This document shows positions 25,901 to 49,900 of a stretch of DNA of 64,000 nucleotides, piece by piece (the stretch's first letter is position 1; every line of letters starts with the position of its first letter). The stretch covers positions 12,248,922-12,312,921 of the forward strand of contig NC_092678.1 in assembly GCF_964355755.1 (NCBI RefSeq), written 5' to 3'. The DNA comes from Antedon mediterranea. Taxonomy: Eukaryota > Echinodermata > Crinoidea > Comatulida > Antedonidae. The notes under the pieces are model-generated. The model ran no database searches and was not told the DNA's origin. It saw only the letters and a list, made by a program, of their open reading frames with translations. The translations under genes and the position numbers were made by a program.

Positions 25901-28900
25901 ACAGTTTCAAATTTCATATATACAGTTCTTATTGGTCAGATGTTTTGCCCAATTCTGACGTAACTGTAAATTATTCTCATTACAAGTGCGAGAGAACATA
26001 ACTGACCAAATAAATTCAATACATTGCTACATTGGTTCATATAACAATTGTAATCGCGTTTTAAACTTGATTATAGTTTTGAGAATCAGTATTTTATTTA
26101 TACCAAACATAATTAAAAAAAACTGTATTTACATAACAGGGTTCTGACATCAACCTTGCTAGTGATGTTGAGGATGTTGAAGTGTTCATTGGAAGTGTTA
26201 AATGCACTGTAAATTCAATAACACGTACAGTAGTTCTTGTTGAAGTACCAGACAAGGAACCTAATCCAGTAGATGGTGAAGATCATCCTCTTGTTATGGT
26301 AGGTCGTGAGATCACCCGAAAATACTTTTAACATTATACTATAATGTTTTATTATATCCAATAGTCTGTAACCAATAATGTCAAAATCACACATTGTTTG
26401 TAAACGAACTCATTGTAATATTAATTTCTATTTAGTTGCTGTTTAGACTTAGATTGAATAAGTAAAACAACGTGCAGAACTTAGAGACAAAAAAAGTATT
26501 TGTCAAGATCCTAATTTTACAAAATTCTTAATTTTAGTCTTTGCTACTTAAACATTTTTGAATATATTCATTCTAACATTATTACTACTAGACTAGACTG
26601 TTTTTAACAAAAAATGTTTAATATTGATTGTCTCCAAATAACTTTAGATCCGTCATGGAAATCTAAAGTTCACTTTTGGTTCAATAAGATATGTAGGCAT
26701 TGAATTGTCTACCACCGTCGTAGTTATTATAATTACGGTTGTTGTGATTATGGCTATCATCATTACGATCATACCTGTCTACTGGCGTAGATCAAGAATA
26801 CTCAACAGACAATTGGAAGAAACAACAGTGAAATTTTTTACAAAAAGTAAGCTAGAAAGCAATATAAATAAACTCAAACTATTGATATCATAAAGGGCTT
26901 TGAAAAGTAAAAGCTAAATTTGGATATATGAGTGATGTAAAATATAACTCATTATTTCTACAAAAAAAAAACAAAACCCAGAAACTAAGAGTAGTGATTT
27001 TACTTCTTGAAATTAGACAGATTTTTAATTACTATCGCAAGTCATCTAGAAACGAGTTTTAACAATTTTTTGTAATAAAATTACCTTGTGATCTTCACTA
27101 TTGATGTATTATTTAGGTTAAATACATGCATTGGCATCTACTCAACAAAACCAACAAGATAATGAGAGTGCCTATATGAATACGCTACTGGCAAACTAAT
27201 CTATATATAAATTTACGTAAGGGCAAAATTCGGTAAATCGCGCCTTACTTCTAGAATTTTCACTCGATGGTATGTAAAGTTGGTTCGTACTTTCGGTACT
27301 GATTTTAACCGCCTGATGTAACCCTGTTTACTAATTAAATTGAGTTAGATAATTAGTTATTGACGATTAAAACGAATTTAGGTTCAACGATTTGCCCCAA
27401 ATAGGGGTGTTTTCCGATCGTGGTATACACTGTCTAATGGATGTCCATCTTGAAAAATACCCGCCAAAAAAATGCGAGGAGGCTTCGCATTTTTCTATCT
27501 CCTCCTACGATAATTGTTTTTAATAGCTGAAAACCGGTTGAACAGCTAGAGTACACCATCATAATGTTGAAGACAGGCCGATTTTCTTTAAAAAATACTA
27601 TTTTGATAGATTTAATATACGATTATACAAATGTATTGACTTGCGATGAATGGAACATCCCAATCTCTCAGTCTGCCAGAGTTGGTTTAACACAAGTACT
27701 GTAGGTAAATTTATGAGCCCTTGGTTTAACACATACGGTAGGTAAATATATGGGCCCTTTGAGAATAAACTTGCAATACTTTGACAATACTGTAAATACC
27801 TATTAACTATTTTTCATTTGAATCGAACATTTCTTACTGTGAATGTTCGTACTGTTATGTAATATAAAAATATATACAAATAAACTTTATTACTGAGACT
27901 GTGGATAGGCTCTACTGTTAGATATACAAATAAACTTTATACTGACAGTTCCTTCTCAACGTTTGTATTAATTAATAATTACCAAAAATATAAACGTCGT
28001 AGTGGTGTATCGTGACATGTACTTTAATATTTCAATCGATTATGACCGTGACAGTTTTAACAAAGTATTAGCCTAAATCGCAAATGTTTTAGGCCTACTG
28101 TATTTAGAGGTATATTATTTATAGGCCTATAAAACATGAACAAAATATTTCGTTACTCAGTGGATAAAGAATATATTTAAAAATTGTTCCTCTTTGTACC
28201 TATCCGCTTTCCCATCCCTCAACCCTAATGTTACATAGCGAGGAGGCTTCGCATTTTCCTATCTCCTCCTACGATAATTGTTTTTAATAGCTGAAAACCG
28301 GTTGAACAGCTAGAGTACACCATCATAATGTTGAAGACAGGCCGATTTTCTTTAAAAAATACTATTTTGATAGATTGCTAGAGTACACCATCATAATGTT
28401 GAAGACAGGCCGATTTTCTTTAAAAAATACTATTTTGATAGATTTAATATACGATTATACAAATGTATTGATTTGCGATGAATGGAACATCCCAATCTCT
28501 CAGTCTGCCAGAGTTTGGTTTAACACAAGTACTGTAGGTAAATTTATGAGCCCTTGGTTTAACACATACGGTAGGTAAATATATGGGCCCTTTGAGAATA
28601 AACTTGCAATAGGTTCGGAATATGTTAAAAACCAATTTCTATTATTTGAATCGGTAAACAGTTTCCATTTATTATACATTGATAATGAAACATGAAATAT
28701 TCCTATTTATGTCCCTCGAGGTTCATTACAATTTATATTTAGTAGTCCCACGGACTTCATCTTAGCCACTCCCCCGAGTGCTAAGGCCAAATTTATGATA
28801 CCCTACTTTCTATGTAAGTTTAGTTACAGTTAGTTTTTGACGATAATACAACGAATTTAGGTTACACCCTTCGGCCGCGAAAACGTTTCTGTACAAATAT

Positions 28901-34900: not shown

Positions 34901-37900
34901 CCGTCCGTCGTTATCGTCATAGTGTAATTGGACCTTTATACAAAAAAAAAATAAATTGATTACGAAGTTACATGTCATTTTCACCTATTCAACACTAATT
35001 GTTACAAAGCCAATTTATATTATATATTTCATTAAAACTGAACTTTACGGTAAATGAAGAGTAAGTATCAGTTAATATGAATAATATAACTAGTAGGTCT
35101 ATGAACTTGCGTCCAGACACAGAACTGTGACATTACTATCATAAATGTTGAAACCACTTATAAAACCTTTTTTTAAAGAAAATATAATTGTGTTAGGAGA
35201 AGGCTAATAAACAAATAGATAATGTACAAACCTTTTTCTAGATCAATTAATGGAGCAGGCGTTCCTAATAATCTGCTGCTGCTACCTAGACTGATTGTTC
35301 ACCTTCTGACGATAATTTATTGGACCCCCACACGGCATCTGATAACCAAAAAAAAATTTACCAGGACTGTTTCAATGATTTAATATCTGACGGCGTATTA
35401 TTATAACATTGGCCTAGATTGACAGTCAAAAGAAAGTCATTGTAAATACCTCCCTTTATGTTGACAGAGCCAAAATAAAGTTTTGACCATTATCGAATGA
35501 TTATTTGACAGTGACTTATTATAATACCGGCCTGGTTGACAGCAAAAACGAAGTTATTATTTATTGAACAAGATTTTACAGATTTCCGTCTACATCTCAA
35601 TAATACTGTATTATCAGCAAAGGCTTTCATAGACTCTCTTCTCCCAGACTTTTTTTGGGTCCAGCAGCTACCTATAAATTATAGTCGAGTTTCCAAATTC
35701 ACAAAACTGTCAGCCTTAGATACTAAAGCTACCGCTATGAAACAGCTTATTAATAAATGTGTCCTCCTGGGACATAGCTGGCTAGAGCCGCGGCGCGAAA
35801 AATTGTAATGATTTTAGATTTAGATTTAGATAATAAGTTTATGGTTATGATACAATATCGGTACAAGGGGTACAAGGACGATGCAATCAGTGCCACTTTT
35901 AAGTTACAATGGTTTATGTCCAACTCTGTCTATTATATGGTTCTGGTGGCAGAACACGTAAGAAAAACCGTTACAGTCTATTGGTTAATATAATACTATA
36001 ATTACGCCTATAATTAATACAGACTTTTATCTGTTTTACTTTAGGCAAAACTTTTCCGCTTTGTTCTTAATGGCTATGGTTGGTGATGATAAAACAGAAT
36101 ATCTGTTTCAGTGAGTAATACTTAGTATATACCTTATTAATTTACAATTCTTGTGTATTACGTATGCAAGAATGAACGCTAGAATTGGCAGCACTGACTG
36201 ACTTAAGCGACAAGATGTAGTTGGAAAGTAAATTATCTAAGTCCACAGTAGCAATGATCGTTATACAATTTAAGTTATTATTAAGTAATTCTATGGTTAC
36301 GCTTAATTCTAATATGTTGTGTGATTAAATATTTTAGTATTATGGATATGCTTCTAAGCAAACATATTGCTAACAAAGTGAAGGCCAAAAATGTCAAGTT
36401 AGCTTTAAGCAAGTGGGTACAGTTATTTTGTGTTTTTAATAATTAATTATTAAAACCTAATTTGCAAACGTGTGTTTATCAAGTTATGACATATTACTTT
36501 AGTGACTGTGAATGTGAAATATACTTCAATATGTACTTATATACTTCTTATATACTTCATATACTTTTTATCTATTGCTATATTAATCAAATGTAATATA
36601 GCAATTACCTTCAATTACAGAAACGGCGAAACTGTTATCGAACATATGATATCTCACGTGGTGGCATTATGCATGTATAAATACACAATGGTATGTAAAT
36701 TATTTTATACATTAATAATTATACCTACATATCATTATTCTTAATAATTAAACTAATGATGTCCTAACTCAAGTCGGTTTATTATATTAGTAAGTAATAT
36801 TATGTGATTTGGTTTACGTAATGTAAAATTAGCTTGGTTTGGGTTATTTTCTTAATAAAAGATTTTCTTTCTAAATAATATAAGTCTCTTTTTTATTTGT
36901 AACAAATTTGACTCCTTAATAGGAATATCAAATAAAGTCCATCAATCATCAATTAATCAATCAAATAAGATCAGATCTAAAATAACGTACTGTATATAAA
37001 TATATTATGTGTGTTGTATACTACTTAGTTCACTTGAATTTTGCAGAAGTATGTATCAGGGCCTCTTTTGCAACTTGTAGATGCTATAACTACGAGAATA
37101 GATAGTGGTGCGGTAGACGCTGTTCATCATCATTGTCAATATTCTTTAGACGAGAACTGCCTTCTGCCAATTGATGTTACTGGAGAGAATATAGTAAGAA
37201 ATCTGCAAATGTTTTGGAAACATTTGAGTATATAACATATAACACTGAAGCATAATGCTACTTGCAAACAATTATTTTAATACATTTTTAGAGCCCATGA
37301 CAAGTAAATGTGTATATAATAAAAGTGTTTAAGAAGGTCAGATAATCCCCCAAATATTTAATTATTAGCCAATCCGATAAATACTGAATTTCCACACAAA
37401 TTCAATGGCATTTTTTTTTCAATTTAGAATTTGAGTTTGGTAGTTGATGAGGAAAAACAAGAGATTGTGAAAGTAAACAGTTGTGATACGCTATTTCAAG
37501 TAAAACAAAAACTGTTAAATGTTATGTTTAAGGAACAACCTTTTTCAAAAAGACCCAACGTTTCACACGTTCAGTTAGGTGAGTACACCAACAAACAAGC
37601 AATTTAATTGTATCTTGCTCCTTTATTCTGTAGATTTCAATTAAATACATAATAACCTTTTTTTTCTAAATCTAGAATGGAGAGTGAATGTAGATCAACG
37701 AATTATTTTACAAGATACCGATTTACAGACAGAAAGAAAACTAAAAACAATTGCAGATTTTGGAGTAATATTACTGTAGTATTTTTTGTTTTGTAATAAA
37801 TTAACTGTTAGAAAAATGTATTAAGCCTATAATAATAGGCTCAATAGACATAGGTTGTGTATAGGCCGGACGTCAGTTGACACAAGCTTAACATGACGCA

Positions 37901-40900
37901 TGCACCTTAACTAATTAATAAAAATACTTTTCTACACCAGCACGTTAGCAAACAAATAAGAGAGAGTGAATGTAGATCAACGAATTATTTTACAAGATAC
38001 CGATTTACAGACAGAAAGAAAACTAAAAACAATTGCAGATTTTGGAGTAATATTACTGTAGTATTTTTTGTTTTGTAATAAATTAACTGTTAGAAAAATG
38101 TATTAAGCCTATAATAATAGGCTCAATAGACATAGGTTGTGTATAGGCCGGACGTCAGTTGACACAAGCTTAACATGACGCATGCACCTTAACTAATTAA
38201 TAAAAATACTTTTCTACACCAGCACGTTAGCAAACAAATAAGTCGGATCTTAAATTTGAAAAATTATTTTTTTTTCAGATTCAAAATAATGCAGTGGTAG
38301 CGTTTGTAGACGTTTGGAAGGAAGATATCAACGCGTCAGACCAGTATGATACAATTAAGCAACCAATAGTTGCTAGATATGGTAATAATGATAATATGTA
38401 TTGGTATACATACTACATTCCAATTGAACCTAAACCAGAATCTACTAATATATTTCAACTTAAAAAAGAATCAGTTTCTTCTTATTTTATGTAATTATAA
38501 TTGTTCAATAATAAATTAATAATATAAAAAAACAAACAATACTGTTTATAAAGTCACGGCCATTTATGTACTGAAGATTTCTTATTGGTAGTACTTTTTA
38601 TTTCGGCAAACAGATTAACAAACAACATCAAAAAGCTTTATTCAGCCAATGAGTGGCAGAATAGACCAATTTATTTGTTGTTGTTTGTGCTATTGCTTTA
38701 TTATTGTCTATGATCTAACTTTACTTTTTAAGAAACTAACATCTACCAAACATCAATCAATGCAGACGGCACTTTCCACATTGTGAGTGATTTTAGTTCA
38801 AATACTTTGAAACATTTACAGTCACCATTAATTGAATAAACAACAAACAATTGATATAAATACATTTTATTGCTTATTGGACATCTGGTAATGAACTGTG
38901 AACTAAATATTCATTAAAGTAGCTTTACGCTAGTCGATAATTTGACTACACATCAGTTACTGTTGGTCGTTTAGGCGTTCTAGTTAAAAAAATATATTTA
39001 GCATACATTGCTTGTCATAACTAGAGACTTGGCAAGTGTAGTTGGTCAGTTTTGATTTTGAAATTGACTTTTTTTAGTTGGAAGGAAATGTGTACACGGG
39101 TGCGTATGATGCAATGGACGGCGAGAAGCCAGATATTGATGAATCCATCTTTGAAAGGTTAACTGAAACTAAGGTAGGAATAAATAAAAACAACATTTGT
39201 TGATTTAAACTATTTTTAAACAGTTGGGTTTTAATAGGATGCAACTTGACATGCATATGAGACGTATCACTCTAATGTATCTTGTTGTTGGTCAAACTTG
39301 TATTGTCCGTCTATTGTGTCCTCGAAACTTTTTTTATGGGAGTAAACCCGCTTTTATTGTTGTTTTGCATATATCGAACATCATTGGTTTGGTTTTCCTT
39401 AACATTTTACAGTAATAAGTATATTATTATCTCTCAATTCCACAGCAAATTTACCAACAGCATGTTGACTCCATAATGAATAATGTATTCAGCTCATCAT
39501 CGAACAACATCCACCTACCGCTATTTGTTAAATATCTTTTTGATTTTCTGGATAACATGGCGACTAAGCATGGTGTTAGTATCAATGAATTGAAGATATG
39601 GAAAAACAACAGGTATTGAAATTGCAATACATTGCATGTTAGAAAATGATATATTTAGGTTTTACTCAAAGCTCACAATGGTGTATCTACGATTTACATC
39701 GAAGAATTGGCTCCTAAGATGTCTGATTATTTAACATTAAAAGAAACAAGGTTAAGAAATTTAAATTATAAATATTCAAAATTCAAATTAAAAGTGTAGG
39801 CCTAATAATTTATGTTTATATATGAGCGTTTATTTCTTCTTTTATAATGAGTATTTTCCAAATTATTTGTCTTACAATTTCAATATCAGCACGTATTTCT
39901 TCCATTTTCATACAATATAATCAAAATAGCAAGAAAAATCAGAAGTGGACTAGATCAATAATCATATTTTTATCCTTTTTTAGTTTAGCTGAAATGTTTT
40001 GGTTAAGAATTCTGAGAAACCCTGCTTATGTCTGTGACATTCAACAAACGCCCCCTATTGATATTACTCTCGGTGTCATCTCTGCTGTTTTCCGAGAATC
40101 TTGGTCAATTGAGCTGTTTGGTTTTAAAAAGGTAAAACGCAAAAGTCAATGTATTTATTTTTATATTGTATGGCTGCGTATTTTAATGTGCGACGACATC
40201 TTACCGAGACCGTTTAATGAATATCAGTTTACTACTTTAGCTTCTGTTCAGAATCATATTTGTTCATATTATTGTTTTAGTTTTATATTTGCACGATTTT
40301 GTTGAAATTAAGAACTAACTGTAGACCTACAGTTTGTCCAAATCTGAAATATCATAAATACACTTTGTTTTGATTATTTGGATTCTAAACCGTCACATTC
40401 GCTTCACTGTTTATTCATGTAGACCACCCTACAGTTTCAAAATTATAATTAATATTTATATCTTTATACATATTATTATATCATGCAAGCAGTTACAAGC
40501 TACCGTACTGAGTTTTAATAATTATTTTGTAATATTTCATCAGCCATTTAATTTAAAAGTCTATTTTTGGTGAAAGTCATGCCAAGTTTGTTCTTTAGTG
40601 CTTTTTTAACTTTCATTCTTTATTTCAAAGAGTTCGCCAAGTCATCGACAGATGTATGTAAAAGAGATTCCACGATACCGCCAACTTGTTACTAAGTTCT
40701 ATAGTGACATCAAGCATACCCCAACTTGTGATCGCATGAACGTTATCGATGAAGTAAATTCTCTTATACAGGTATGTAAAAAGACTATCAATATTGCTAT
40801 TTCTCAAAGAAACTAATAGGCATTGGTTGAGGCATATGTCAATAAACAAACATATAGACTAATAGGCATTGGTTGAGGCATATGCCAATAAGTACAAACA

Positions 40901-41553
40901 GAGAAAGAAATAATGGTAAAATAATATACTAATACTAATGTTTTTTATTCTCAGCCATTTAGCACATTGTTTAAGAAGTCGAGTGTGTTAGTGAATCTTC
41001 ATTCATTTACAGTTAAATATTTAAGAGAGGTAAATATAAATAAATTATATACAGATATTTTGATAGTGTACCAGCAGAAAAAGAGTTACTGATCTATACA
41101 CGTCGGATTTACTATACTGTACTAAACAGTTGAACTAATAGTGAACAATTAGAGTACTACAATCAACACTTTTTCATGTATTAAAATTAAAAAAAGGCTT
41201 TCCATTTTATTATCCGATTTACACACCAAATAAAATTAATTATTACATGTGTCTTAGTAAAACAATGTGCATTTCAACATCATTCTGCCTCTAACATTTA
41301 TCATTTGAGTAAACGTTGTTAATATTTTAATATTTTAATTAAATATCAGGTTAAAGACGCATTCCTTAAAGGTACAAATAGAAATGAAAGTACTGTTGAA
41401 GTTTTTACAACAAAAGTAAGTAAGTCGTCGTCGTCGAAGGAACAAGCAGCGTATGTCAACTCAGAAATCCAGCAATGTCGTCGACACAATCAGAAAAGAA
41501 GAGAGGACACAGGTGTGATCATACTTTCTGATGACACAAACGCTGGCTGCTAA
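317..41553 (+). CDS. Plexin-family semaphorin receptor (37 exons)
   Basis: Plexins are single-pass receptors for semaphorins and signal in axon guidance and cell adhesion through an intracellular GAP for small Ras/Rap GTPases. Exons that I threaded by splice site and phase: 317-1366, 1816-2034, 2431-2559, 3061-3176, 3406-3523, 5397-5553, 6679-6775, 8020-8134, 8437-8571, 21860-21961, 22486-22573, 23005-23171, 23354-23526, 23879-23978, 24119-24255, 24453-24617, 24897-24984, 25213-25485, 26140-26298, 26648-26846, 31911-32089, 32204-32230, 32394-32512, 36045-36110, 36338-36412, 36621-36690, 37047-37193, 37428-37578, 37676-37764, 38279-38381, 38733-38782, 39078-39173, 39446-39612, 39984-40131, 40631-40771, 40955-41029, 41350-41553. 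They sum to 5,694 nt, an open frame of 1,897 codons plus stop, which is normal plexin length. The domain order matches the family. The paralogue (A, B or other) is not assigned. The protein is divergent in its cytoplasmic half. Confidence 0.93.
1816..2559 (+). CDS. Plexin exons 2-3: end of sema domain
   Basis: Exon 2 (1816-2034) encodes LMCPPNDG and the propeller strand IVFIGTDNGQLSK. Its acceptor is preceded by a TACTAAT branch-point-like motif about 20 nt upstream. Exon 3 (2431-2559) encodes YETVTIDTGQEV and SDYIIALTAKK, the standard last sema strands of plexins. Both exons are phase 0. The intron between them carries a 57-bp tandem repeat. Confidence 0.88.
2121..2291 (+). repeat. 57-bp minisatellite, three copies
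   Basis: Three near-identical 57-bp units start at 2121, 2178 and 2235, each beginning GACTGGTGATAATGAGTAAG. The repeat lies in plexin intron 2. The unit length is a multiple of three, so it stays open on both strands, but nothing else suggests coding. Confidence 0.9.
2596..2780. repeat. Probable dispersed-repeat fragment in intron 3
   Basis: This stretch starts with an ATCATCATCATCAGC run followed by CAGTCCACTGTAGGACAAAA. The layout resembles the 'TCATCATCAGCC...CCACTGCTGGACA' ends of repeats known in many invertebrates. I see no open frame, and the assignment is by recalled resemblance only. Confidence 0.35.
3061..3523 (+). CDS. Plexin exons 4-5: first PSI domain
   Basis: Exon 4 (3061-3176, phase 0 to 2) and exon 5 (3406-3523, phase 2 to 0) join inside a cysteine-knot PSI module. 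Diagnostic pieces are NCSQFITCDECI, YCGWCTLYKKC, RFKECQ and the tryptophan in SPWLPSN. PSI modules position the sema propeller against the downstream IPT domains. The fit in spacing, cysteines and phase is very good. Confidence 0.9.
3765..4520 (-). mobile_element. tRNA-derived SINE, two tandem copies plus a fragment
   Basis: Two long copies (about 3765-4088 and 4091-4455) and a truncated third share the same body. On the minus strand each has a tRNA-like head (3873-3944 and 4204-4274): box A TGGTCTAAT.GTTAGGACA, box B GAGTTCGAGTC (the first copy reads GAGTTCTAGTC), and a CTGC/GCAG stem around a seven-base loop. The body contains a conserved ACCGCCCGGTGATATACTG motif and ends near TATATATA tracts. 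Other copies lie at about 34290-34410 and 62170-62395. The copies sit in plexin intron 5. Confidence 0.8.
4671..5287. mobile_element. Solo LTR of an LTR retrotransposon
   Basis: The 617-bp segment begins TGTAATATA and ends TATATTACA, a 9-bp perfect terminal inverted repeat of the TG...CA type. It is flanked by the 4-bp direct repeat GTAC (4667-4670 and 5288-5291), which fits a target-site duplication. An AATAAA signal lies near 5215. No internal gag or pol is adjacent, so it is most likely a recombination-derived solo LTR. It also holds a 27-bp tandem repeat (about 5030-5100). Confidence 0.85.
5397..6775 (+). CDS. Plexin exons 6-7: first IPT-like region
   Basis: Exon 6 (5397-5553, phase 0 to 1) encodes ISLTVEQLPPL..., YNCKFG and LTCNSPPL, the hallmark strands of the IPT/TIG region after plexin PSI1. 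Exon 7 (6679-6775, phase 1 to 2) continues with FVDVILSVHSS and FTFFDCS. The intron between them holds a short MITE-like repeat (about 5808-5900) and a SINE-like element. Confidence 0.88.
6035..6626 (+). mobile_element. SINE-like element with GGCGGAGGT-type ends and tRNA-like segment
   Basis: The element starts CTAGAG...ACCTCCGCC and ends CCTTGGCGGAGGT, so its edges are inverted versions of each other. Inside, 6178-6246 looks tRNA-like: box A TGGTGTAATGGTTATG, box B GGTTCAAGTCCC. An (ACACAAAC)n tract precedes the 3' end. A longer relative with the same ends occupies 12240-20252. It lies in plexin intron 6. Confidence 0.7.
6776..8019. other. Plexin intron 7, no recognisable content
   Basis: AT-rich intron of 1.2 kb. 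Apart from ordinary splice sites I see no open frame with family features and no clear repeat structure. Confidence 0.6.
8020..8571 (+). CDS. Plexin exons 8-9: second PSI domain and linker
   Basis: Exon 8 (8020-8134) begins in phase 2 and encodes the compact PSI core CSECVSSFTCDWCVYDNKC. Exon 9 (8437-8571, phase 0) continues with GSCPQIYQPNEE and VIIPIKNVPNATK, which matches the plexin segment leading into the next beta-sandwich. The following intron is the largest in the gene (13.3 kb) and is almost entirely transposon. Confidence 0.88.
10570..10730. mobile_element. 161-bp MITE with long terminal inverted repeats
   Basis: The first and last ~65 bp are near-perfect inverted repeats, starting AAGCCGAATTTCCACTAGG on one side and the same reading inward on the other. 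Each arm carries a TTCGCGCGAA motif. Flanking TA dinucleotides (10568-10569 and 10731-10732) fit a 2-bp target duplication as in Tc1/mariner-type insertion. It would fold into one hairpin. Confidence 0.85.
10815..11655 (+). mobile_element. Microsatellite-bearing nonautonomous element, copy 1
   Basis: The layout is: TATAGTTCACTATGTCGGT, a (GTCGGTCT/GTCT)n tract, CCGGTATCACTATGC, a body of about 0.55 kb rich in CGCGC and ACGTG motifs, then a second TAGTTCACTATGTCGG...CCGGTATCACTATGC module and a GACTTAATGGCTGTTGGCCTT tail. The same two-module layout recurs at 31060-31855. Arrays of 4-bp repeats inside a modular element recall the 'pearl' Helitron-related elements of bivalves; that link is inference. 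Confidence 0.7.
12760..13563 (+). CDS. LINE ORF1: L1-ORF1p-like coiled-coil RNA-binding protein
   Basis: 267 residues. The N-terminus is basic and polar (RERRNNKKDKEKDR). Residues about 35-125 form a long heptad-rich coiled coil. A RRM-like core follows, with LERYTRSFNLRFGGIKE and AHRTGKPR. The C-terminal part has IIAKFLFRPQRYQVL and GIFVLEDLPETDLKKK. This matches the layout of ORF1 proteins that coat LINE RNA and act as nucleic-acid chaperones. The frame is uninterrupted from ATG to stop. Confidence 0.8.
   Translation: MSRERRNNKKDKEKDRVLLAPESSTLDSECGDPDGTEATEVGMLRRELRTFQTIIKGKLNSIILNQEALLKRIDKIEHKQTELEKSIAFTSDSIVEIEKKIVSFCTDIEAVKTSMDADRNNVTLLQNQILKLERYTRSFNLRFGGIKESIDEIPIEKINEIIKNDLKLPNITVENAHRTGKPRTSPTGAPRHIIAKFLFRPQRYQVLMQAKTGHVLKNKGIFVLEDLPETDLKKKRNLREIMAKAYGERKRPVFRNGNLYINGKLHS
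13564..14235 (+). other. Inter-ORF spacer of the LINE
   Basis: 672 nt without a convincing protein. It has imperfect internal repeats (ATGTATGTAAACAA, TTTGCATA.GA..AGAG and GTCAAAC each recur) and then pyrimidine/AT-rich TTTATTTATT tracts just before ORF2. Such a long spacer is unusual for two-ORF LINEs, where the ORFs usually overlap or nearly touch. Confidence 0.6.
14236..17226 (+). CDS. LINE ORF2: AP-type endonuclease and reverse transcriptase
   Basis: 996 residues, uninterrupted. The N-terminal exonuclease/endonuclease/phosphatase fold shows SLNCRSIVNK, LQETWLS, RRGGGVALY, LMGDFNLDL and SDHYPIF. The central reverse transcriptase shows NNYRPISILPCLSKVYERVV, SQYGFRQQHST, FLDLSKAFDSMDH, GVPQGSILGPLLF and the catalytic MYADDTNVF (Asp pair at about residues 720-721). 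The C-terminus has LPNLTYAITLWGS and NVWNSLPNDIK, usual for CR1/Jockey-like LINEs. All key catalytic motifs are present. Confidence 0.92.
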   Translation: MLPFLSNTTDDDDEDLNPYLKYNESKYYHVEEFRQISNISDDVSFLSLNCRSIVNKFDQFSQFIDSLNYKFSVIALQETWLSDNDEVSFFNLPNYVLVNRNRTGRRGGGVALYISDNLCYKPRDDLSKLITEAESLFIDIIIDGKYISAGVIYRPPESKISIFNNQFTEVMNIITKEKTHSYLMGDFNLDLNLYHSNCNVQCHVDATVSNSFLPLINKPTRVTENTSSIIDNIYSNSTNNHNINTGIIYTDISDHYPIFAITKSENRKKNTKQSFILKRTYFHQQVESFKEDLAIENWQPVLRTEDANIAYSTFAHNFKHLIDKNFPLKKIKAKANKDRSPWITEAIAKSITTKGRLYSSYRKNPTPSNKLKYTKYRNKLTALIKKRKEEYYFTQFENNKSNTKKTWKTINTIMGRTKTRQLPPTINHDFKQFNTPSEKANAFNTYFTSIGETLAKRISQEPQITESSSYLTGNYVNSMFLRPVTEDEIKTLLENLETNKTPGHDDIGALYLKPYSNYLKRPITHLINISLATGCFPDELKIAKTIPIFKNGDKSEINNYRPISILPCLSKVYERVVSNQTISFLNKNNVLNKSQYGFRQQHSTIHALLDTFEKITSAIEQKCFMIGIFLDLSKAFDSMDHHILLQKMRHYGIRGVVLDWFKSYLSTRKQFVNVEGKKSETKYIKYGVPQGSILGPLLFLIFINDMPFACRNTNVIMYADDTNVFLQHNDITRAFDILNYEMACLSNWFIANRLTVNTKKTNYIVFTSRNVKIDTSNLTLLINTDIIERVNQTKFLGVHLDEKLSFAYHINSIAKKVSTAIGTMNKIKCVLPYEILLKIYNSLILPNLTYAITLWGSTNQTILNRLYILQKKALRNVCNVPFHHPSLPLFARTKTLKLSELYQKSVAILMFKFHHKKLPITFDSFFATNNSKHNYETRAKDNLSTAFKRTLLGQQSVTYRGTNVWNSLPNDIKMSTSIGMFKHKIHDMFVTSYLYF
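20253..21050 (-). mobile_element. L1/Tx1-type LINE, 5' part of the split copy
   Basis: On the minus strand, broken frames read KLNKSPSSDGLRVEFYRHF, SNSQRLGVINLYL, ENWRPITFLN, GYIKGRFGGENIRVVEDV, IFLDFAKAFDS and GVRQGCPLSALLF. These are the successive reverse-transcriptase blocks of L1/Tx1-group elements. The frame breaks off at ALLF exactly where the GGCGGAGGT repeat begins and resumes at 12239. The fingers part is present but the endonuclease is missing, so the copy was 5'-truncated. Confidence 0.82.
21059..21310 (+). mobile_element. tRNA-derived SINE
   Basis: The head at 21059-21130 has box A-like TGGCATGGTGGTTATGATG and box B GGGTTCAAGTCCTG, with CAATCCAAGG where an anticodon arm would be. 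A body of about 180 bp ends in an AAATAAAACAAAC tail. It is a third, distinct tRNA-like family in the window. It does not fold as a functional tRNA. Confidence 0.65.
21534..21873 (+). repeat. ~170-bp tandem duplication spanning exon 10 acceptor
   Basis: Two copies (about 21534-21703 and 21704-21873) differ by a 2-bp indel and a few substitutions. Each ends with TTTATTGTAG followed by GTAAACAACTATG, that is, the 3' splice site and first 13 bases of plexin exon 10. Only the second copy leads into the real exon. Splicing to the first copy would run into an in-frame TAA within about 50 nt. Confidence 0.9.
21860..23171 (+). CDS. Plexin exons 10-12: beta-sandwich and third PSI domain
   Basis: Exon 10 (21860-21961, phase 0) encodes YECELQIEAQTVRIPATVD. 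Exon 11 (22486-22573, phase 0 to 1) encodes VNAYIKVFWNENVIDN. Exon 12 (23005-23171, phase 1 to 0) is the third PSI module, with YKCSVQRPDCSRCY, DCVWCTGDQCSY and FCSS. These correspond to the family's PSI2-IPT-PSI3 section. The intron 22574-23004 holds a MITE-like palindrome remnant. Confidence 0.88.
22690..22815. repeat. Short palindromic MITE-like repeat (copies also near 5808 and 33085)
   Basis: CTACAATATCAAATTAGTTT, then AAAAAAGTGTAATGTG.CC, then ATATGGTAGTGAT, then CATATATAGGCACATCA. Related copies lie at about 5808-5900 and 33085-33235. Parts of the two halves are inverted relative to each other (AAGTGTGATGTGCC against GGGCACATCA). They look like remnants of one short inverted-repeat element. 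Confidence 0.6.
23354..23978 (+). CDS. Plexin exons 13-14: IPT/TIG domain
   Basis: Exon 13 (23354-23526, phase 0 to 2) encodes ILPISVATVTTQPEPD and VIELFGTDFGQMMSGI. Exon 14 (23879-23978, phase 2 to 0) begins with VRCKAPVFDS and ends VILYQ. The RCKAP motif and G.DFG loop are typical of plexin IPT folds following PSI3. Confidence 0.87.
24119..24984 (+). CDS. Plexin exons 15-17: IPT/TIG domains
   Basis: Exon 15 (24119-24255, phase 0 to 2) starts NPIISELSPRFGIQAGGTTL, the classic IPT opening. Exon 16 (24453-24617, phase 2 to 2) contains IMCTTSNYT and SYTTNPTVTDFQPNQG, the close of one IPT and the opening of the next. Exon 17 (24897-24984, phase 2 to 0) has GGQNIIVTGTNF. Phases agree at each junction. 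Confidence 0.88.
25213..26298 (+). CDS. Plexin exons 18-19: last extracellular IPT domain
   Basis: Exon 18 (25213-25485) and exon 19 (26140-26298) are both phase 0. Exon 18 contains MDCESPP, VTFSFDDFVP and FSVFPNPVYYLFD, like the plexin consensus 'F.Y.PDP'. Exon 19 contains VEVFIGSVKCTVNSITRT, the membrane-proximal strand set. The intron between them (25486-26139) has no recognisable gene or repeat structure. Confidence 0.87.
26648..26846 (+). CDS. Plexin exon 20: transmembrane helix and juxtamembrane
   Basis: After the last extracellular strand (KFTFGSIRYVG) comes a long run of Val and Ile (about residues 1218-1241, TTVVVIIITVVVIMAIII...), then a basic stop-transfer WRRSR and the start of the juxtamembrane coiled segment (ILNRQLEETTVKFF). 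The exon ends in phase 1. Translation beyond the donor would stop after about 16 codons. Confidence 0.92.
27200..29760 (+). mobile_element. Helitron-like nonautonomous element, copy 1
   Basis: Starts TCTATATATAAATTTACG after an A, and ends ...CATCTAG before a T, the TC...CTRR termini and A|T insertion rule of Helitrons. Just inside the 3' end is the hairpin AGATGGTACGC / GCGTGCCATCT with GAGCGAAGCGAGC between. No Rep/helicase is visible, so it is nonautonomous. Internal partial duplications occur: a GAGGAGGCTTCGCATTTT block at about 27477 and 28240, and a ~69-bp direct repeat at 28307-28440. Confidence 0.8.
29761..30940 (+). mobile_element. Helitron-like nonautonomous element, copy 2
   Basis: Begins TCTATATATAAATTTACG immediately after the CTAG end of copy 1 and is closely similar to it through the CGGTAAATCGCG, GAAAACCGGTTGAACAGC and GGAATATA-type blocks. 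It ends at GAACCATCTGTGGGCACGAA without a preserved 3' hairpin. It is shorter than copy 1, lacking the internal duplications. Confidence 0.75.
31060..31855 (+). mobile_element. Microsatellite-bearing nonautonomous element, copy 2
   Basis: Same modular layout as 10815-11655: TATAGTTCACTATGTCGG, a (GTCG/GTCT)n tract, CCGGTATCACTATGCGTTTT, a body with repeated CGCGCG motifs, then a second TATAGTTCACTATGTCGG module, CCGGTATCACTATGCATTG and GACTTAATGGCTGTTGGCCTT. The apparent PTDRPTD peptide repeats on the minus strand are only the microsatellite read in frame. Confidence 0.72.
31911..32512 (+). CDS. Plexin exons 21-23: juxtamembrane and first GAP helices
   Basis: Exon 21 (31911-32089, phase 1 to 0) is acidic at first (EEKEEEFLEINEDDSEV), then has MGIVHDGMIARKLS and EMTPVMQES, aligned with the plexin 'GIPFLDY...HPVL' stretch. 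Exon 22 (32204-32230) is a 27-nt microexon encoding YLHHVIRKE. Exon 23 (32394-32512, phase 0 to 2) encodes GLPELDLFLNEKYIMKIINI, like the family's 'F..LL..K.FL..FI.TLE'. Using the upstream acceptor at 32193 for exon 22 instead would shift frame and hit a stop at the next junction, so 32204 is preferred. Confidence 0.78.
33239..34210. repeat. Cluster of ~54-bp and longer direct repeats
   Basis: The motif GAACGAAAGTATTTATTTGT followed by TGATAAGCCCAATTTT recurs near 33249, 33307, 33524 (diverged), 33942 and 34176. A second unit, AATGACCCCTTCCACAGTGC...TTTACGCCTCT, occurs at about 33352 and 33987. The arrangement suggests staggered segmental duplication of one ~0.6-kb block. Confidence 0.65.
34290..34410 (+). 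mobile_element. SINE fragment (tRNA-Glu-like family)
   Basis: ACCGTACCACGCCGAGAATG...AACAATACCATGAAAACCCC matches the flank just upstream of the tRNA-like heads at 62236 and (inverted) 4274. The tRNA-like head itself is missing or replaced after CAACACTTTCAGG. Confidence 0.55.
34572..34940. mobile_element. ~370-bp inverted-repeat element (MITE)
   Basis: The left arm (ATAAGGCCCATACACTAGG, GACGATAACGATCGACG, ACATAAACCAAAAGAAAT) is repeated in inverted form at the right end (ATTTCTTTTGGTTTATGT, CGTCGTTATCGTC, ATAGTGTAATTGGACCTTTA). Arms are about 85 bp. A second inner palindrome surrounds TGACGTCA motifs (34700-34790). No coding capacity. Confidence 0.8.
36045..37193 (+). CDS. Plexin exons 24-27: GAP core, arginine-finger region altered
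   Basis: Exons 36045-36110, 36338-36412, 36621-36690 and 37047-37193 have phases 2, 2, 2 and 0 at their starts. They encode QNFSALFLMAMVGDDKTEYL, HIMDMLLSKHIANKVKAKNV, KLALSKNGETVIEHMISHVV and SGPLLQLVDAITTRIDSGAV plus DAVHHHCQYSL. The alignment with family landmarks ('ASLL..AL', 'LRR.E.VVEKML', 'GPVDAV...A.YTLN') is clear. Where active plexins have the arginine pair before E.VVE, this protein has S-K-N-G (residues 1417-1420). The exon junction falls exactly there, but neither flank can supply arginine. Confidence 0.85.
37428..38381 (+). CDS. Plexin exons 28-30: Ras/Rho-binding insert (RBD)
   Basis: Exon 28 (37428-37578, phase 0 to 1), exon 29 (37676-37764, ends phase 0 at GGA|GTAATA) and exon 30 (38279-38381, phase 0 to 1). 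Family landmarks: VKVNSCDTLFQVKQKLLNVM, QLEWRVN (plexin 'VLEWR'), RIILQDTDLQTER and IADFGIQNNAVVAFV. This ubiquitin-like insert splits the GAP domain and in known plexins binds Rac1/Rnd GTPases. Exon 29 lies in a perfect tandem duplication. Confidence 0.85.
37681..38242 (+). repeat. Perfect 282-bp tandem duplication covering plexin exon 29
   Basis: Copy 1 (37681-37962 including the junction AG; core 37681-37960) and copy 2 (starting 37963) are identical base for base over 280 bp in my reading. Each holds exon 29 from its sixth base, its GTAATA donor and about 196 bp of intron. Copy 2 lacks the acceptor and the first 5 exon bases, so it is probably skipped. Confidence 0.93.
38382..38513 (+). 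CDS. Possible read-through 3' end giving a short plexin isoform
   Basis: If the exon 30 donor (GTAATA at 38382) is not used, the frame stays open for 37 more codons (NNDNMYWYTYYIPIEP...) and ends at a TAA at 38492-38494. AATAAA follows at about 38508. The product would keep the RBD but lose the second half of the GAP domain. This could equally be chance intron sequence. Confidence 0.35.
38733..40771 (+). CDS. Plexin exons 31-35: second GAP segment
   Basis: Exons 38733-38782, 39078-39173, 39446-39612, 39984-40131 and 40631-40771 join in phase. Landmarks are INADGTFHILEG, DIDESIFERLTETK, FVKYLFDFLDNMATKHGVS, LKIWKNNRS, EMFWLRILRNPAYVCDI and SSPSHRQMYVKEIPRYRQLV. These match the plexin 'PAVKYFFDFLDEQA', 'IWK.NSLPLRFWVNILKNP' and 'DSPS..LLYAK.I..Y' blocks. 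The conserved arginine before FW is a methionine here (EMFW, residue 1713). Exon 31 is only 50 nt but fixes the phase between exons 30 and 32. Confidence 0.86.
40812..40903 (+). repeat. 46-bp tandem duplication in intron 35
   Basis: ACTAATAGGCATTGGTTGAG recurs with a 46-bp period at 40812 and 40858. The second copy diverges after about 35 bp. No coding relevance is seen. Confidence 0.75.
40955..41553 (+). CDS. Plexin exons 36-37: C-terminus
   Basis: Exon 36 (40955-41029, phase 0) encodes LVNLHSFTVKYLRE, like the plexin 'LH.LY.YTQKYYDEI' helix. Exon 37 (41350-41553, phase 0) starts VKDAFLKGTN and continues into a polar, basic tail (SKSSSSKEQ, RRHNQKRRED) ending DDTNAGC before TAA. The usual plexin end ('...KM.LA.RL.Q.AAALENKVTDL') is not recognisable, so the tail has diverged or been replaced. 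AATAAA-type signals occur near 41804. Confidence 0.8.
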
Positions 41554-43644: not shown

Positions 43645-43999
43645 GATATGCTTTGACCAAAATTAAATATTACGCAGTACTTAAAATAATATAGTCTTTT
43701 TAGTGTATTTCCACATGGATATACTGGCAACGCATTAACAAGCATTTAAAATGAGCTAGCACTTGTGATTTGTCAAATTACTCTTGCGTTGTGCGTACGT
43801 CTTTGCATTGCGCACCAACCATTATATCATTCTTAACTTGTCGTAAGCTTCATAAAAACTTGAACGGACGGAAGTCTGCGTCGTTTTATTAATTAATGGA
43901 AACATTAAACAAAGAATTGACAGGACTTTGTCCGTAAAAAGAAAAACATGTAAATGTAGCTGTATACGGGACCTATTTTTAGTGATAAAATTAAGGTAA

Positions 44000-46900
44000 C
44001 AATAATAACTCACATAGCCAGTTCCCCTCATTAGATCCAGCAGTCTTGAAATCTGGCAACGTTTTTGATGAGTCCCACTTGTCCTTACTGACAAAATGCC
44101 AAGTTACTCCATTATCTTTACTGCGCATGTAACTGCGCATATCCTTGTGAATTCCATAGATATGCCCTTTGGATTGGTCCGAACCAATAACGTTGTGGAG
44201 GTACATTGGCAGTGCTATTGACGAACAATGTAAATTATGTGTATTTAGGTTCAAAGAGAATGATTTAAACGCAATTTATCAAATTAATGTCACTGTTCAC
44301 CATCAGAACTAAGGTGAAGGCGAACCTACTTTGGATTTTCGCCGATTAAATAAAATGGATATGGTTTGAGGCGCTTCTGCTCTTGATTCGATATAGGATA
44401 GTGGTTTTTGGCAGCTGAAAGTTTTTAAGTGTGTAGAGGTCCATGGTTCAGTGCTACCATTGGGGTTAAAAAATATTAAATCATTAAACTCACCTTTCCA
44501 TCTCCCATTTGGTGGATCATCTTGTACATAACAGGACGGAACAAACTTCTGGGATAGACGTCCATATGAAGGATTACAAGCAAAAATGATGTAGTTAGCT
44601 GGATCGTTCAATTTCTTAGTTATTACAAAACCCCGATCATAATAATCTGTCAACATAAAAATGCAATGTGGGCAATGTATGAGTTATTCGTTGGTTCTTG
44701 AAATAAATTTAAATAATGATACACGTGCTATACATTGCAGTAATAACTGATTTGCATGGTATTTAAAAAAAATCATGTGGAATATAAAGTTACTACACAA
44801 AGACAAGTTCACACATCACTGCATAAAACAAATGTATGGCATTGTATATTAAAGCTCTTTCTATTAGTGGTAAGTGAGTGTGGCATTGCTAATAATCGCA
44901 CGTGCAGGCGTCAACACTAAATACCCAGACTTGGAACGTAGTGTTTTGGATGTTATCAATTATGGCCCCCGTAAAAAAAAAGTTTTTTTTCTTCAAAATA
45001 TTAACTGATTTGTTTATTAAAGAAAGTACCTGAAACTGGACAGTTACTAGAATCTCTGACACACACAGTATGCTTTCCGTCTTCGCATTTATGGGCACCA
45101 GCTACACAACAATCGCACTGGTTAGATCCCAAGTCGTAATGGCAGACACATGTCTGAGTATTAGCCCACTTGCTGTACCTCATCACAGTTTCTTTAGCAT
45201 AGTTTGGTACACGTATCTCTGACGAATAATTATGTACTCTCTTTTATTTTGTGTTTAGAGTTCAATTTGGTTCCATTTTATTCGACTACAATATTTTAAG
45301 AACGTGGTGCTGGTTTGTAGGCTTAAAAACTGTTTTACTAAACATTGAATTGATTAAACTAAGAATACTCAAATAAATCAATGGATCAATTTTGTTCATA
45401 TAAAATCTTGATTTACTTTGAAACGACCAACGTTGGCGCTTTTCCAATTCGTTCAATACAGTAGCTATGTAATCTTTATACTACCTTGAGACATAGAATA
45501 TTCACAAATGGCTGGTAAGATAGCGGTACACTCCATAACGTCCCAGCCTCCAAGATCAGTACTGATGTCGTCTCTTGTGTCGTAGATCTCTATATAAGCC
45601 GCAGTTCCACAGTCTTTATTCGAGCTTGTCCCGGGTCTGTTAGGTAGCCATTTTGTATATGACGCTGATGAACCGTCTGTCCACTTGAACTCATCACCCT
45701 AGTAGTATGAAACGTGTAATAATTTCTATATAAATTCACGTCATTCGATTAGCCATGATATATCTTCAACCATACTTCTTTTATTACATCGTTTTGTTCA
45801 TGGTATCGTTTTAAAACAATTATTACCTATAAAAGTAATAATTATAAAAATATAATAATATAATATAATACTTACTCCAACGTCTTTCAAACCAATCCAA
45901 TATCTGTAAGGCGATTGTATAGAAACAAGGCCCCGAAGAAATTGTTGTTCAAAAGCATCTTTGATCGTGACTAATTGCGCATTGTCTGCTTCACAGGCCA
46001 CCTTTGCTGCATCCCAAGTTTCTAGCGTGTCGTTGAACACTCGGTAACACGTTTTCTTGTAAGGTGTATAACCAGGTCGACATACATCTTAGATTTTAAA
46101 TTTAATAGTATATTAATTCACTTCGCCAAAATGATCGGTATTTTCTCTAAAAATGACATTATTACTATAACATCATGGGCAAATTCCAAGATTATAGCGT
46201 TACATATTATGTATCACATGTGACGCCTTTTATTGCGATTCGGTTTAACATTGCTAAAAGATAAACATATGGCGTGCCATAGGTATACGTGAGCTGGAAT
46301 CAATGTTGTTGAGCTCGTAAAAAAATACATAACATAAACAGAAGACTTAGGGCTATGTTAAGACATTTGTGTCATGTATTCGTGATAATAGAAAAGATGA
46401 AGATACAGTACGACAAATGTGTACTGTATAATTACATTGATTGTAAACGAACAAATAGAAATCAAATGTAATGAAACTAGAAAATAAACTAAATTAAACG
46501 ATGTATGCACACATCTAGTTCCAGAATTATTTAAGCATGTAATAAATTACCATTCCCTACAGTAACATAGTATCTACATAAACTTTCCAGAATAAGAGTA
46601 TGTTTAGATTTAAGAAACCATGTATAATTAATATAAGAACAATTAGGAATATTCCAGAAGTATACTATTAATAAAAAACTGTAATCCAATAGAGTAATAA
46701 GTATAAGGAATGATCTGGAAGGTTATGAACATATTGTATATACATGGAAGTATGACATTTGTAAAGAGGGAGAAGAAGGATTTTTGATTAAAGCATTTAT
46801 TTTGAAGAAGGTTGGATATTAGATTGTAAAAGTTATTGTGAAGCCGTTGTTTAAAGTATTTACTGGATTGTTGAAAGTTGTAGTTCGTTGATTGAAATTA

Positions 46901-49900
46901 ATTTTGAGTTATTTTACAACTTTAAGGATTTCGTTTGTATACTTTTATGTCACAAGGGAGTTCCTAAAGTATTTTCAACCGCTCGAAAACATACGTAAAA
47001 TGAGTTCGTGACAAAGCATAGGAGAAATATTACCAATCTTTGGATGAGTTTATAGCCAATAACAAACATTTACGCTTATTCATTTACAACGATTTTGTTT
47101 TAGGTTCTGAAATGTAACGCTTACCACCACATCCAATATCTGGTCTGTCCGAATACTCAAATTGAAAAGGATTGGTAGAACCTAGAACTTTTGAGCTAAC
47201 CGTTGAGTACCACAACAAATCAGCCACCCCGACAAAACGTCGTGTGCCAGGAGCACTTTTACCATTTTTGTCGATTCCCAGGCGTACACGGAAAGTTGGC
47301 TTTGCGGCAATCTGAATGGTTCCAAGCTGTAAAATAAATAAAGCCTTACTAAATTTTCTATCGCCCAAGTTAGTATTTTCTTCCTTTTGGAAAACTGAAA
47401 ATGAAAAAAAAAACTCCCACGCCAATCGTGTTGAAATAAAGTAATTTATGTAGGCCGAAAGAACATCTGTCAAGCCAAGCTTGATTTTTTCCTGGCTGAT
47501 ATTAGACCAACGGTTATTTCTTACTTATTATTATCATTCTGAGGAGGATGCTCGAAATATTCACTCTCATCATTCAAAACTTGAAGTAGGTTTCCTTGCA
47601 TTTTTAACAAGCTTGCTTTGTGGAACCGTACATAAATGAATGATATACGGTAACTTTATTGCAGAATAACTTACATTCAATCGAACAGGAGTTGGACCAG
47701 GCATACTTGTGTTTACCACTGGCGGCTGCAACAACTCTGTGTATTCCGATTCAATGCTAATATACTGGACGTTTTTCGACGTCATTATTGTAAAAGTTAC
47801 GTCTACCGCTTTTCCTGTTGAGTTCCCCTCATGCCATATTGCAATCAATAGTATTACATCTTCACTAGAAACATAGACCAGAATACAATATTAATTTGTA
47901 AAATATCTAATGATATGTTAATTATAGAACAGGGAGAGTGATTTTAGGAATACAAACATGTAATCTAACCGTCAATTCCTTGTTTCCAAATCATTAGTTA
48001 CGATTAAAGTCATAACAATTTCACCAACGATAAACATTCATGAATGTTTATACTTGTCAATTAAATAATGTACATCAAACAAAAAGAATTTTTAGAGATC
48101 ATCGCTATTTACATTCGTTTTCTAAATACCAGCATTATTTTATAACAGACGTTACCGTATCAGCTACAGTATTGATGGAAGATTAGATGATTAGTAAATA
48201 TTCTGACGATGATTGTGAATTTGATATTATTTAGAATCAGTAGGTTGTTTATATTTGTAACCTTGGCTACCAATCCAGTTTCTACATTTTTGGTTTAGTC
48301 TATTTTTATTATATTAAAATAAAGAGTTTTATCCAAGAAAGACGCATACCGTTTTACTCACCCTTTATAAAATGAATTAGTTTCGTATAAAATCTTAAAT
48401 GACATCTTCGGTTCTGGGACTTTGTTAATCAATGTATGGACAGGTACTTCTCCAACCCAGATGTGAGTACCGTCACCAATCTGCATTCCTATTCCTAACC
48501 AGTGCTCAGAACCATTGACTACTTCGTCTGTATCGTCTAGAACAACTTCTACTTCAAACGCTAAGACGTTATTGGAAGCGTCTTGGTCGGTCACCTCGAT
48601 AAATCCGTCAATCCGCGTCAACGACCAGTCTTTAAGAATGCCATAGACATCATCCGTGGCAATGTACTGCGTCTGAAGAGCATAATAACAGAACTCTGTC
48701 GAGTATGTACAGTATAAAGAGTCACTAACAAATGAAACCGACACTTTGTTAATACTCCACTGGTTACTTGTCTTGTTTGTTGAAAAGTTGTATGGCAGCG
48801 TGACTTCAATTATGAGATCGGTGGTTCCTTTTGGAAACTCAACAACAAGGTTTATATGGACCGTTTGACCAATGTTAACATAGACGTTACCATCTTCAGA
48901 CTGCTCGGTAATGTTCATCAAGAAATGTGGTAGTTTGCTGAAACCGACATTGACTAAGACTAATCCGGGGTCATTAATCTCAGCCTTAATGTTAACTCGT
49001 AAAATAACTCCAGGTCTCACATCGGCTAATAATAATAATAATGATAATGATAATTGATGAATTTTTTTTTGCTAACGTATTGATCGTAACAATAATTATA
49101 ATTATACATAATTATGCTTTAAACTAGATTTGACTTAGTTATCCGCAAAAACAAACGCCAAGTGCACGTACGTACAACAATGTAACTTCTAAGAAAGATA
49201 ATTGATTCAGCAAGATAATATTAAAATACTGTACGGGAAAAATTAGAGTTCAAATAAGCGAGATGTGTTTATCAAATTTAAATTTACTAGTACAAAAGAG
49301 AAAAATACCCCCTTTTTCAACATCCGATTGGTCATTATGTTGACGCCACACCACTCGTGAAGCTTTCATAATAATAAAAAAATAGGTGGTAACCATCCAT
49401 CGTGAGGCATATTTTTTGTTCATAAATTTGCATTAAATTAGCTATTTTTAAGCTCACGATTTTTAAAATTTAATGTGCACGTGCGCCGTTATTTTGCAAA
49501 TAAAATTCATAAAAATGAATGGAATTTATCACATAAAGAAAGAACAAAAAATCAATTACAACAATGGTCATTCTACGCCATTTACGTATACAGTGCGTGC
49601 GTGTAAGTCACGTTGCGCAAGACTGACGGCATTAAAAAAATAGGAGGTACATTACTTTACATACATTTCTATATATCGACAAATTTATGAAATGTTATGC
49701 TCACACGTTTTAGAGATACACGAGACACAAAAATGGAGGCGAAAGAAAAAATAATACAGGAAAAAAAATTATTTCATACATCAATCACAAAAGTTAAAAA
49801 CAATAATAACGATGATGGTGATTGATGATGACACGACGGCGACGATGATAATAATAATACTGATTTAAATACCATTAACAGTTGAATTGATGGTTCCTTC

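Follow-up and report, generated by a model that had tools for sequence, protein, structure and literature searches.

Plexin genes with replaced RapGAP catalytic arginines in an array of head-to-head pairs in the crinoid Antedon mediterranea

Plexins of the A, B, C and D classes are receptors for semaphorins that act as GTPase-activating proteins (GAPs) for Rap. Their catalytic arginines are called conserved across the plexin sub-families in PMC6597256, which also describes disagreement among in vivo studies on the need for catalysis, and a Drosophila PlexB with mutated catalytic arginines that still served three wiring steps, residual activity not being excluded by its authors. Multiplication of plexins is described in Acanthaster planci, where a lineage-specific Plexin-B expansion is accompanied by adjacent genes in which a plexin ectodomain is combined with a different cytoplasmic part (Met-LP; PMC6374515), and the CEACAM genes are described as paired activating and inhibitory receptors kept alike by gene conversion (PMC2832619). 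Here we analyze a plexin gene of the crinoid Antedon mediterranea that lies on the forward strand of a 64,000-nucleotide stretch, hereafter the window (RefSeq assembly GCF_964355755.1, contig NC_092678.1, positions 12,248,922 to 12,312,921, or 12.249-12.313 Mb of what we call contig C9), together with its relatives in the searched genome of 354 Mb in 18 contigs.

We suggest that the gene probably belongs to a lineage-specific expansion of pseudo-GAP plexins, non-catalytic by sequence and arranged like paired receptors. Like known plexins, it combines a Sema, PSI-type and IPT ectodomain with a membrane-spanning exon and a GAP domain split by an inserted RBD. The Sema domain was recognized by PF01403 at 29.6 bits (cut-off 23.7; window 1145-1300, genome 12250066-12250221), an IPT/TIG repeat by PF01833 at 37.1 bits (cut-off 20.9; window 24122-24268, genome 12273043-12273189, with one stop within the match), and the RasGAP-like cytoplasmic domain by PF08337 in two segments of 39.3 and 35.6 bits (cut-off 25; window 39443-39613 and 40622-40792). 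The spliced cytoplasmic domain matched plexin-A1 (3ryt) in phmmer with E=3.1e-56 over residues 2-464 of a 524-aa query, an early model that held about 36 residues of intron in exon 30 and did not include exon 31, with the catalytic positions unaffected; that first exon 30 model, which ran into the intron, was replaced after comparison of copies. The final cytoplasmic part was rebuilt from 13 exons spanning 36338-41550, which are exons 25 to 37 of a first-pass annotation made from the sequence of the window:

36338 to 36412, + strand: exon 25, with AG/GT flanks and present in 4 of 5 other copies of its type; ends in an S codon and the first two bases of a K codon (the R-R site)
36621 to 36690, + strand: exon 26, which supplies the third base of the K codon and continues N-G-E-T-V-I-E, the G being an extra residue
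37047 to 37193, + strand: exon 27, GAP segment preceding the RBD
37428 to 37578, + strand: exon 28, RBD
37676 to 37764, + strand: exon 29, RBD
38279 to 38381, + strand: exon 30, end of the RBD, with A-F-V-D where plexin-A1 and -B1 have A-L-V-P
38733 to 38782, + strand: exon 31, 50 bases, required for the frame and present with AG/GT in 5 of 5 other copies
39078 to 39173, + strand: exon 32
39446 to 39612, + strand: exon 33, second GAP segment (PF08337 at genome 12288364-12288534, the 39.3-bit match)
39984 to 40131, + strand: exon 34, E-M-F-W, with the M codon (39994-39996) at the second catalytic arginine and R (40006-40008) at the N1728 equivalent
40631 to 40771, + strand: exon 35, activation-segment helix S-P-S-H-R (within the 35.6-bit PF08337 match)
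40955 to 41029, + strand: exon 36
41350 to 41550, + strand: exon 37, C-terminal tail, then the stop codon

The first-pass annotation had proposed that the catalytic arginines were lost at the junction of exons 25 and 26 and in exon 34, and both proposals were borne out by alignment of the spliced protein to plexin-A1, plexin-B1 and plexins of the same genome. Exon 25 ends in TTA AGC AA before the donor gtgggt (36412), and exon 26 opens after cag with A AAC GGC GAA ACT (36621), so that the protein reads L-S-K-N-G-E-T. The same phase-2 intron splits the second-arginine codon in every gene whose junction could be read, namely the window gene, four other copies of its type, three genes of a second type described below, and the plexins L001 (at 5.82 Mb), L002 (2.46 Mb), L003 (3.44 Mb) and L005 (5.99 Mb; L004 is the same gene), and by this shared exon homology R-R corresponds to S-K, with one extra residue (G) after the N. 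The placement by MAFFT agrees, with R-R opposite S-K; in an ungapped phmmer alignment R-R would fall opposite K-N, and under neither placement is there an arginine. In exon 34 the protein reads S-L-A-E-M-F-W against L-P-L-R-F-W, a change of R to M.

Hereafter plus-type and minus-type denote the two kinds of array gene by the strand that they occupy, the window gene being of the plus type. The junction reads M-R-R-N-E-S-V in L001, L-R-R-N-E-G-V in L003, F-R-W-T-E-S-V in L005, L-I-R-N-E-T-V in L002, L-A-R-T-D-S-V in the minus-type genes and L-S-K-N-G-E-T-V in the plus-type genes, while the second arginine is R in L001, L002, L003 and L004, K in the minus type and M in the plus type. With plexin-A3 numbering placed through the fixed spacing in plexin-A1, the ten catalytic and Rap-contact sites R1407, R1408, R1724, N1728, N1732, Q1754, D1758, P1772, N1774 and K1775, whose roles are described in PMC3787391, carry S K M R N A E P H R in the window gene, against R R R N N Q D P S K for L001. 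Thus 9 of 10 are kept in L001, 2 of 10 in the minus type (R1408 and N1774) and 2 of 10 in the window gene (N1732 and P1772), where neither the arginine finger nor the second arginine of a competent plexin RapGAP is present and only 2 of the 7 Rap switch contacts (N1728 to K1775) persist. Unlike described plexins, then, the window gene has the finger, the second arginine and most Rap contacts replaced, and its RBD loop is altered as well (A-F-V-D in the plus type and A-L-V-K in the minus type against A-L-V-P). L001 was the one canonical plexin seen in the genome; L016 (1.97 Mb) is a further fragment resembling its 3' end. N1728 is lost in all five divergent plexin types compared (L003, L004/L005, L002, L006 and the window gene), including L003 with all three arginines; a shift of substrate may have preceded the loss of catalysis.

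Five further plus-type copies were compared with the window gene: L007 (12.36 Mb), L009 (12.60 Mb), L011 (12.716 Mb), L013 (12.82 Mb) and L015 (12.97 Mb). From these, 63 of 65 exons were recovered, with AG acceptors in 63 of 63 and GT donors in 58 of 58 internal exons; the two not recovered are exons 25 and 26 of L015, which were absent from the stretch taken around that gene; this stretch also has a reverse-transcriptase-like frame upstream of exon 27. Across the cytoplasmic exons of all six copies, insertions and deletions are multiples of three and there are no stops; with the window gene counted, S-K-N-G occurs in all five copies with a readable junction and E-M-F-W in all six. Pairwise pS among the plus-type copies is only 0.01-0.10. 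The pooled ratio of nonsynonymous to synonymous proportions of differences (pN/pS) is 0.31 over 15 pairs; of the 79 changes counted in three disjoint pairs, 47 are nonsynonymous, whereas 79% would have been so in the absence of selection (binomial p 6e-5). The plus-type genes are kept under purifying selection and the window gene is not a lone decaying copy; neither a broken frame nor relaxed selection, as expected of pseudogenes, was found in the cytoplasmic exons of the six. The suggestion in the first-pass annotation that this might be a recently relaxed paralogue was not supported, since all six copies keep both the frame and the changes, and its pseudo-GAP reading is favoured by the loss of the catalytic arginines within an intact cytoplasmic frame. 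It had further described a frame intact over 37 exons, which stands for the 13 cytoplasmic exons; the ectodomain was checked in part and not at every splice site.

Membership in an array and the second cytoplasmic type lay beyond the view of that annotation, which covered the window. A protein search with the first exon found at least 26 places on contig C9, 13 of them within 12.23-12.92 Mb (8 on the plus strand, 5 on the minus strand); copy counts from this and from the profile search are lower bounds. By position, six plus-strand Sema exons lead to six plus-strand GAP domains and five minus-strand Sema exons to five minus-strand GAP domains, a linkage seen as colinear exon blocks in the window gene, one plus-type and one minus-type paralogue and assumed for the others. 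The genes form head-to-head pairs with Sema exons at -12.235/+12.249, -12.535/+12.576, -12.663/+12.682, -12.778/+12.798 and -12.898/+12.919 Mb, 14 to 40 kb apart; the plus-type gene at 12.338 Mb has no minus-type partner among the first-exon matches. In two plus-type genes a second Sema first exon lies 2-6 kb downstream (12.5756/12.5815 Mb and 12.6819/12.6841 Mb), possibly an alternative first exon or a leftover of duplication.

The ectodomain of the window gene was traced through the following blocks:

290 to 1402, + strand: first exon block, coding for the N-terminus and the beginning of the Sema domain; a 370-aa stop-to-stop frame, the donor near the 3' end being approximate, with 12 further array matches at 72-82% identity
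1792 to 2589, + strand: further Sema-domain exon blocks, of which 1792-2055 and 2395-2589 are conserved in one plus-type and one minus-type paralogue
3061 to 8587, + strand: cysteine-rich block (3061-3177; PSI-type, assigned by eye from conserved cysteines) and the ectodomain blocks that follow; seven blocks are present in both paralogues at 65-92% amino acid identity, the lowest being a 17-residue block, with nucleotide matches too
21860 to 26307, + strand: ectodomain exon blocks with the IPT/TIG repeat, 71-93% identical to the minus-type gene, the last stretch in common ending at 26300
26648 to 26890, + strand: transmembrane exon block

The two types share this ectodomain and differ from the transmembrane segment inwards. 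In the one minus-type gene compared over its full length, 19 ectodomain blocks are found as in the plus-type paralogue, 18 of them at 71-93% amino acid identity to the window gene and the other, of 17 residues, at 65%; even the first introns can be aligned, and the exon sequence in common ends with the stretch 26138-26300. Identity then drops sharply in the transmembrane block, which is 34% identical to the minus-type gene whereas it is 86% identical to the plus-type paralogue. Most ectodomain matches between the window gene and its plus-type paralogue are 82-96% identical in nucleotides, a figure that reaches 99% along the final 3.6 kb. The combination known from paired receptors, similar ectodomains with different cytoplasmic domains in one cluster, was thus found for one minus-type gene in full and for the Sema exon of five. 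In the minus type the finger arginine is replaced by A in all three readable copies and the second arginine by K in 5 of 5 (exons 25-27 of L008 and 25-26 of L010 lay outside the fetched stretches), and the partial cytoplasmic segments have a pooled pN/pS of 0.10 over 10 pairs of five copies. The idea that the minus type supplies a catalytically active partner was rejected, as its finger arginine is gone too.

The ectodomains are not sorted by inner type: median dS (synonymous divergence) of the Sema exon is similar within and between types, at 0.355 among plus-type genes (28 pairs), 0.289 among minus-type genes (10 pairs) and 0.335 between them (40 pairs). Of the 26 first-exon matches, 13 were used for dS and 12 for a test of shared runs, L028 being dropped as incomplete; L029-L031 were aligned and left out of the dS counts, and L016, L032 and fragments at 13.9-14.1 Mb enter no count. 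In the run test, long shared runs at p<0.01 were found in 10 of 66 pairs, including 4 of the 35 plus/minus pairs. Shared runs fit an exchange of ectodomain sequence between the types, the test being a modest one.

On the reading that we favour, the RapGAP domain of the window gene, which keeps the plexin framework, is by its sequence catalytically dead, with the finger changed to S, its neighbouring R to K, the second arginine to M and most Rap contacts replaced. The array holds at least six plus-type genes, five of them paired head to head with minus-type genes, with the ectodomain in common, the difference beginning at the transmembrane segment, and the finger arginine lost to different residues in the two types (S and A). 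Both types were most likely retained as non-catalytic receptors for the same class of ligand, presumably of semaphorin type, through the common ectodomain, and their output would come from scaffolding or GTPase binding, or from opposing catalytic plexins by competition for ligand or formation of inactive dimers. We infer the absence of GAP activity (from the residues at the site), the ligand class and the paired or antagonistic function, and put paired function forward as a hypothesis. Compared with the described systems, the array resembles Acanthaster planci in its multiplied plexins and in adjacent genes with a common ectodomain and different cytoplasmic domains, but the second type there is a tyrosine kinase while both types here have plexin GAP domains that lack the finger arginine. 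It resembles the CEACAM genes, as those are described, in clustering, in similar ligand-binding parts joined to different cytoplasmic parts, and perhaps in exchange between ectodomain exons, but has a plexin fold and only hypothetically opposite signalling outputs. With the Drosophila PlexB mutant it has in common a plexin without GAP arginines, functional in vivo in the fly, although there the loss was made in the laboratory and here it is natural and extends to other contact residues. A natural plexin family under selection without the arginines, beside the canonical L001, would offer a direct test of plexin roles apart from RapGAP catalysis, and plexins would join the receptors that work as pairs if the layout of one ectodomain with two tails proved functional. 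In open-access literature on inactive GAPs, plexin expansion, allorecognition and gene conversion, to the extent of the text accessible, no account of plexins naturally lacking the catalytic arginines was found; a report on PSI-domain proteins of a flatworm (PMC10900676) is unrelated.

Several observations weigh against this reading. Among the alignment columns identical in plexin-A1, plexin-B1 and L001, the plus type, represented by the window gene, retains 2 of the 9 with a catalytic or contact role against 61 of the 120 others, which is not significant (one-sided Fisher test, p 0.094); the minus type keeps 1 of 9 against 72 of 114 (p 0.0032), and the same test gives p 0.063 for the 5.99 Mb gene, 0.35 for L002 and 0.65 for L003. 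An excess of loss at catalytic sites is therefore clear for the minus type and only suggestive for the plus type, whose branch in the tree is long (1.84 changes per column), and part of its loss may be general divergence along that branch. The tree separates only plexin-A1, plexin-B1 and L001 from the rest (100/100) and supports no order among the divergent types. The L-V-P of the RBD loop matters for Rac/Rnd binding, and its alteration makes signalling via Rho GTPases less certain. After Bonferroni correction a single one of the 66 pairs with shared runs is left, the head-to-head pair -12.663/+12.682, and the null model ignores clustering of variable sites, which could inflate the result. The Sema exon has a pN/pS of 0.41 (78 pairs), indicating purifying selection; diversifying selection was tested and none was found within this one genome, 1 of 67 sliding windows exceeding 1, no more than column shuffles give. 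This weighs against the recognition-type form of the idea in particular, in which head-to-head plexins with two dead cytoplasmic types exchange one ectodomain and act in recognition (self/non-self, immune or gamete) rather than in axon guidance, and which we regard as doubtful.

Among other explanations, one that keeps some weight, although we think it rather improbable, is that the plus type is a decoy or dominant-negative receptor that does no more than bind ligand or tie up catalytic plexins in inactive dimers and does not signal itself. Changes in both the catalytic pocket and the A-L-V-P loop alongside a conserved ectodomain, and the described activation of the plexin GAP by dimerisation (PMC3787391), are all as such a receptor would have it, but a pure decoy would not need some 500 cytoplasmic residues under purifying selection. 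That selection also bears on the unlikely alternative that the plus-type genes are relaxed duplicates on their way to pseudogenes, looking intact through recent duplication and gene conversion. The cytoplasmic copies are indeed so alike that little time has passed since they became so, exons 25 and 26 of L015 are missing from the fetched stretch, Sema exons at 12.581 and 12.684 Mb are extra or incomplete, and the fragments at 13.9-14.1 Mb carry stops; yet frame and splice sites are intact in six copies, with the pooled pN/pS given above, and the long branch of the plus type implies a long existence without loss of frame.

It is less likely still that the domain remains a working GAP whose substrate or chemistry has changed, the finger's role on another GTPase being taken by some basic residue close by, for example the K of S-K or the R found four positions beyond the lost second arginine. 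Basic residues do lie close to both lost arginines, and the loss of N1728 in five divergent types, with the finger still present in L003 and the 5.99 Mb gene, would fit a change of substrate that came ahead of the finger's loss; against this, three arginines and 5 of 7 switch-contact residues are replaced together, and lysine substitutes poorly for an arginine finger. Least probable by far is an artefact of gene model or assembly, in which other splice sites would restore the arginines or sequencing error would have removed them. The exon 25 donor gtgggt is weak by consensus, and another frame of exon 26 reads K-R-R-N, but this frame stops after 19 codons and would not restore the domain, the residues recur throughout the readable plus-type copies, and L001, L002, L003, L005 and three minus-type genes share the intron phase.

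Some further features of the region were noted. Tyrosines in Y-D-A-M (39078-39173) and Y-V-N-S (41350-41550) contexts are kept in 6 of 6 plus-type copies, and we take these to resemble SH2-binding motifs. One tandem duplication touches the cytoplasmic exons of the window gene:

37676 to 38243, + strand: tandem duplication of about 283 bases comprising exon 29, its donor and its 3' intron, with the second exon copy at 37963-38046

This duplication is single in the one plus-type paralogue compared, and its second exon copy has no normal acceptor, so splicing may be unharmed. Within a plexin intron at 12742-17226 are two long open frames of 273 and 1030 aa that by eye resemble a non-LTR (long terminal repeat) retrotransposon; a Pfam scan of the 273-aa frame gave no match. 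Elsewhere on C9, at 21.38-21.42 Mb, Sema, TIG and tyrosine-kinase matches are clustered as expected of a Met-type receptor. On the minus strand of the window at 43800-50500, tail-to-tail with the plexin, there appears to be a further gene of extracellular type, whose C-type lectin domain lies at 45798-46088 (PF00059, E 1.2e-8).

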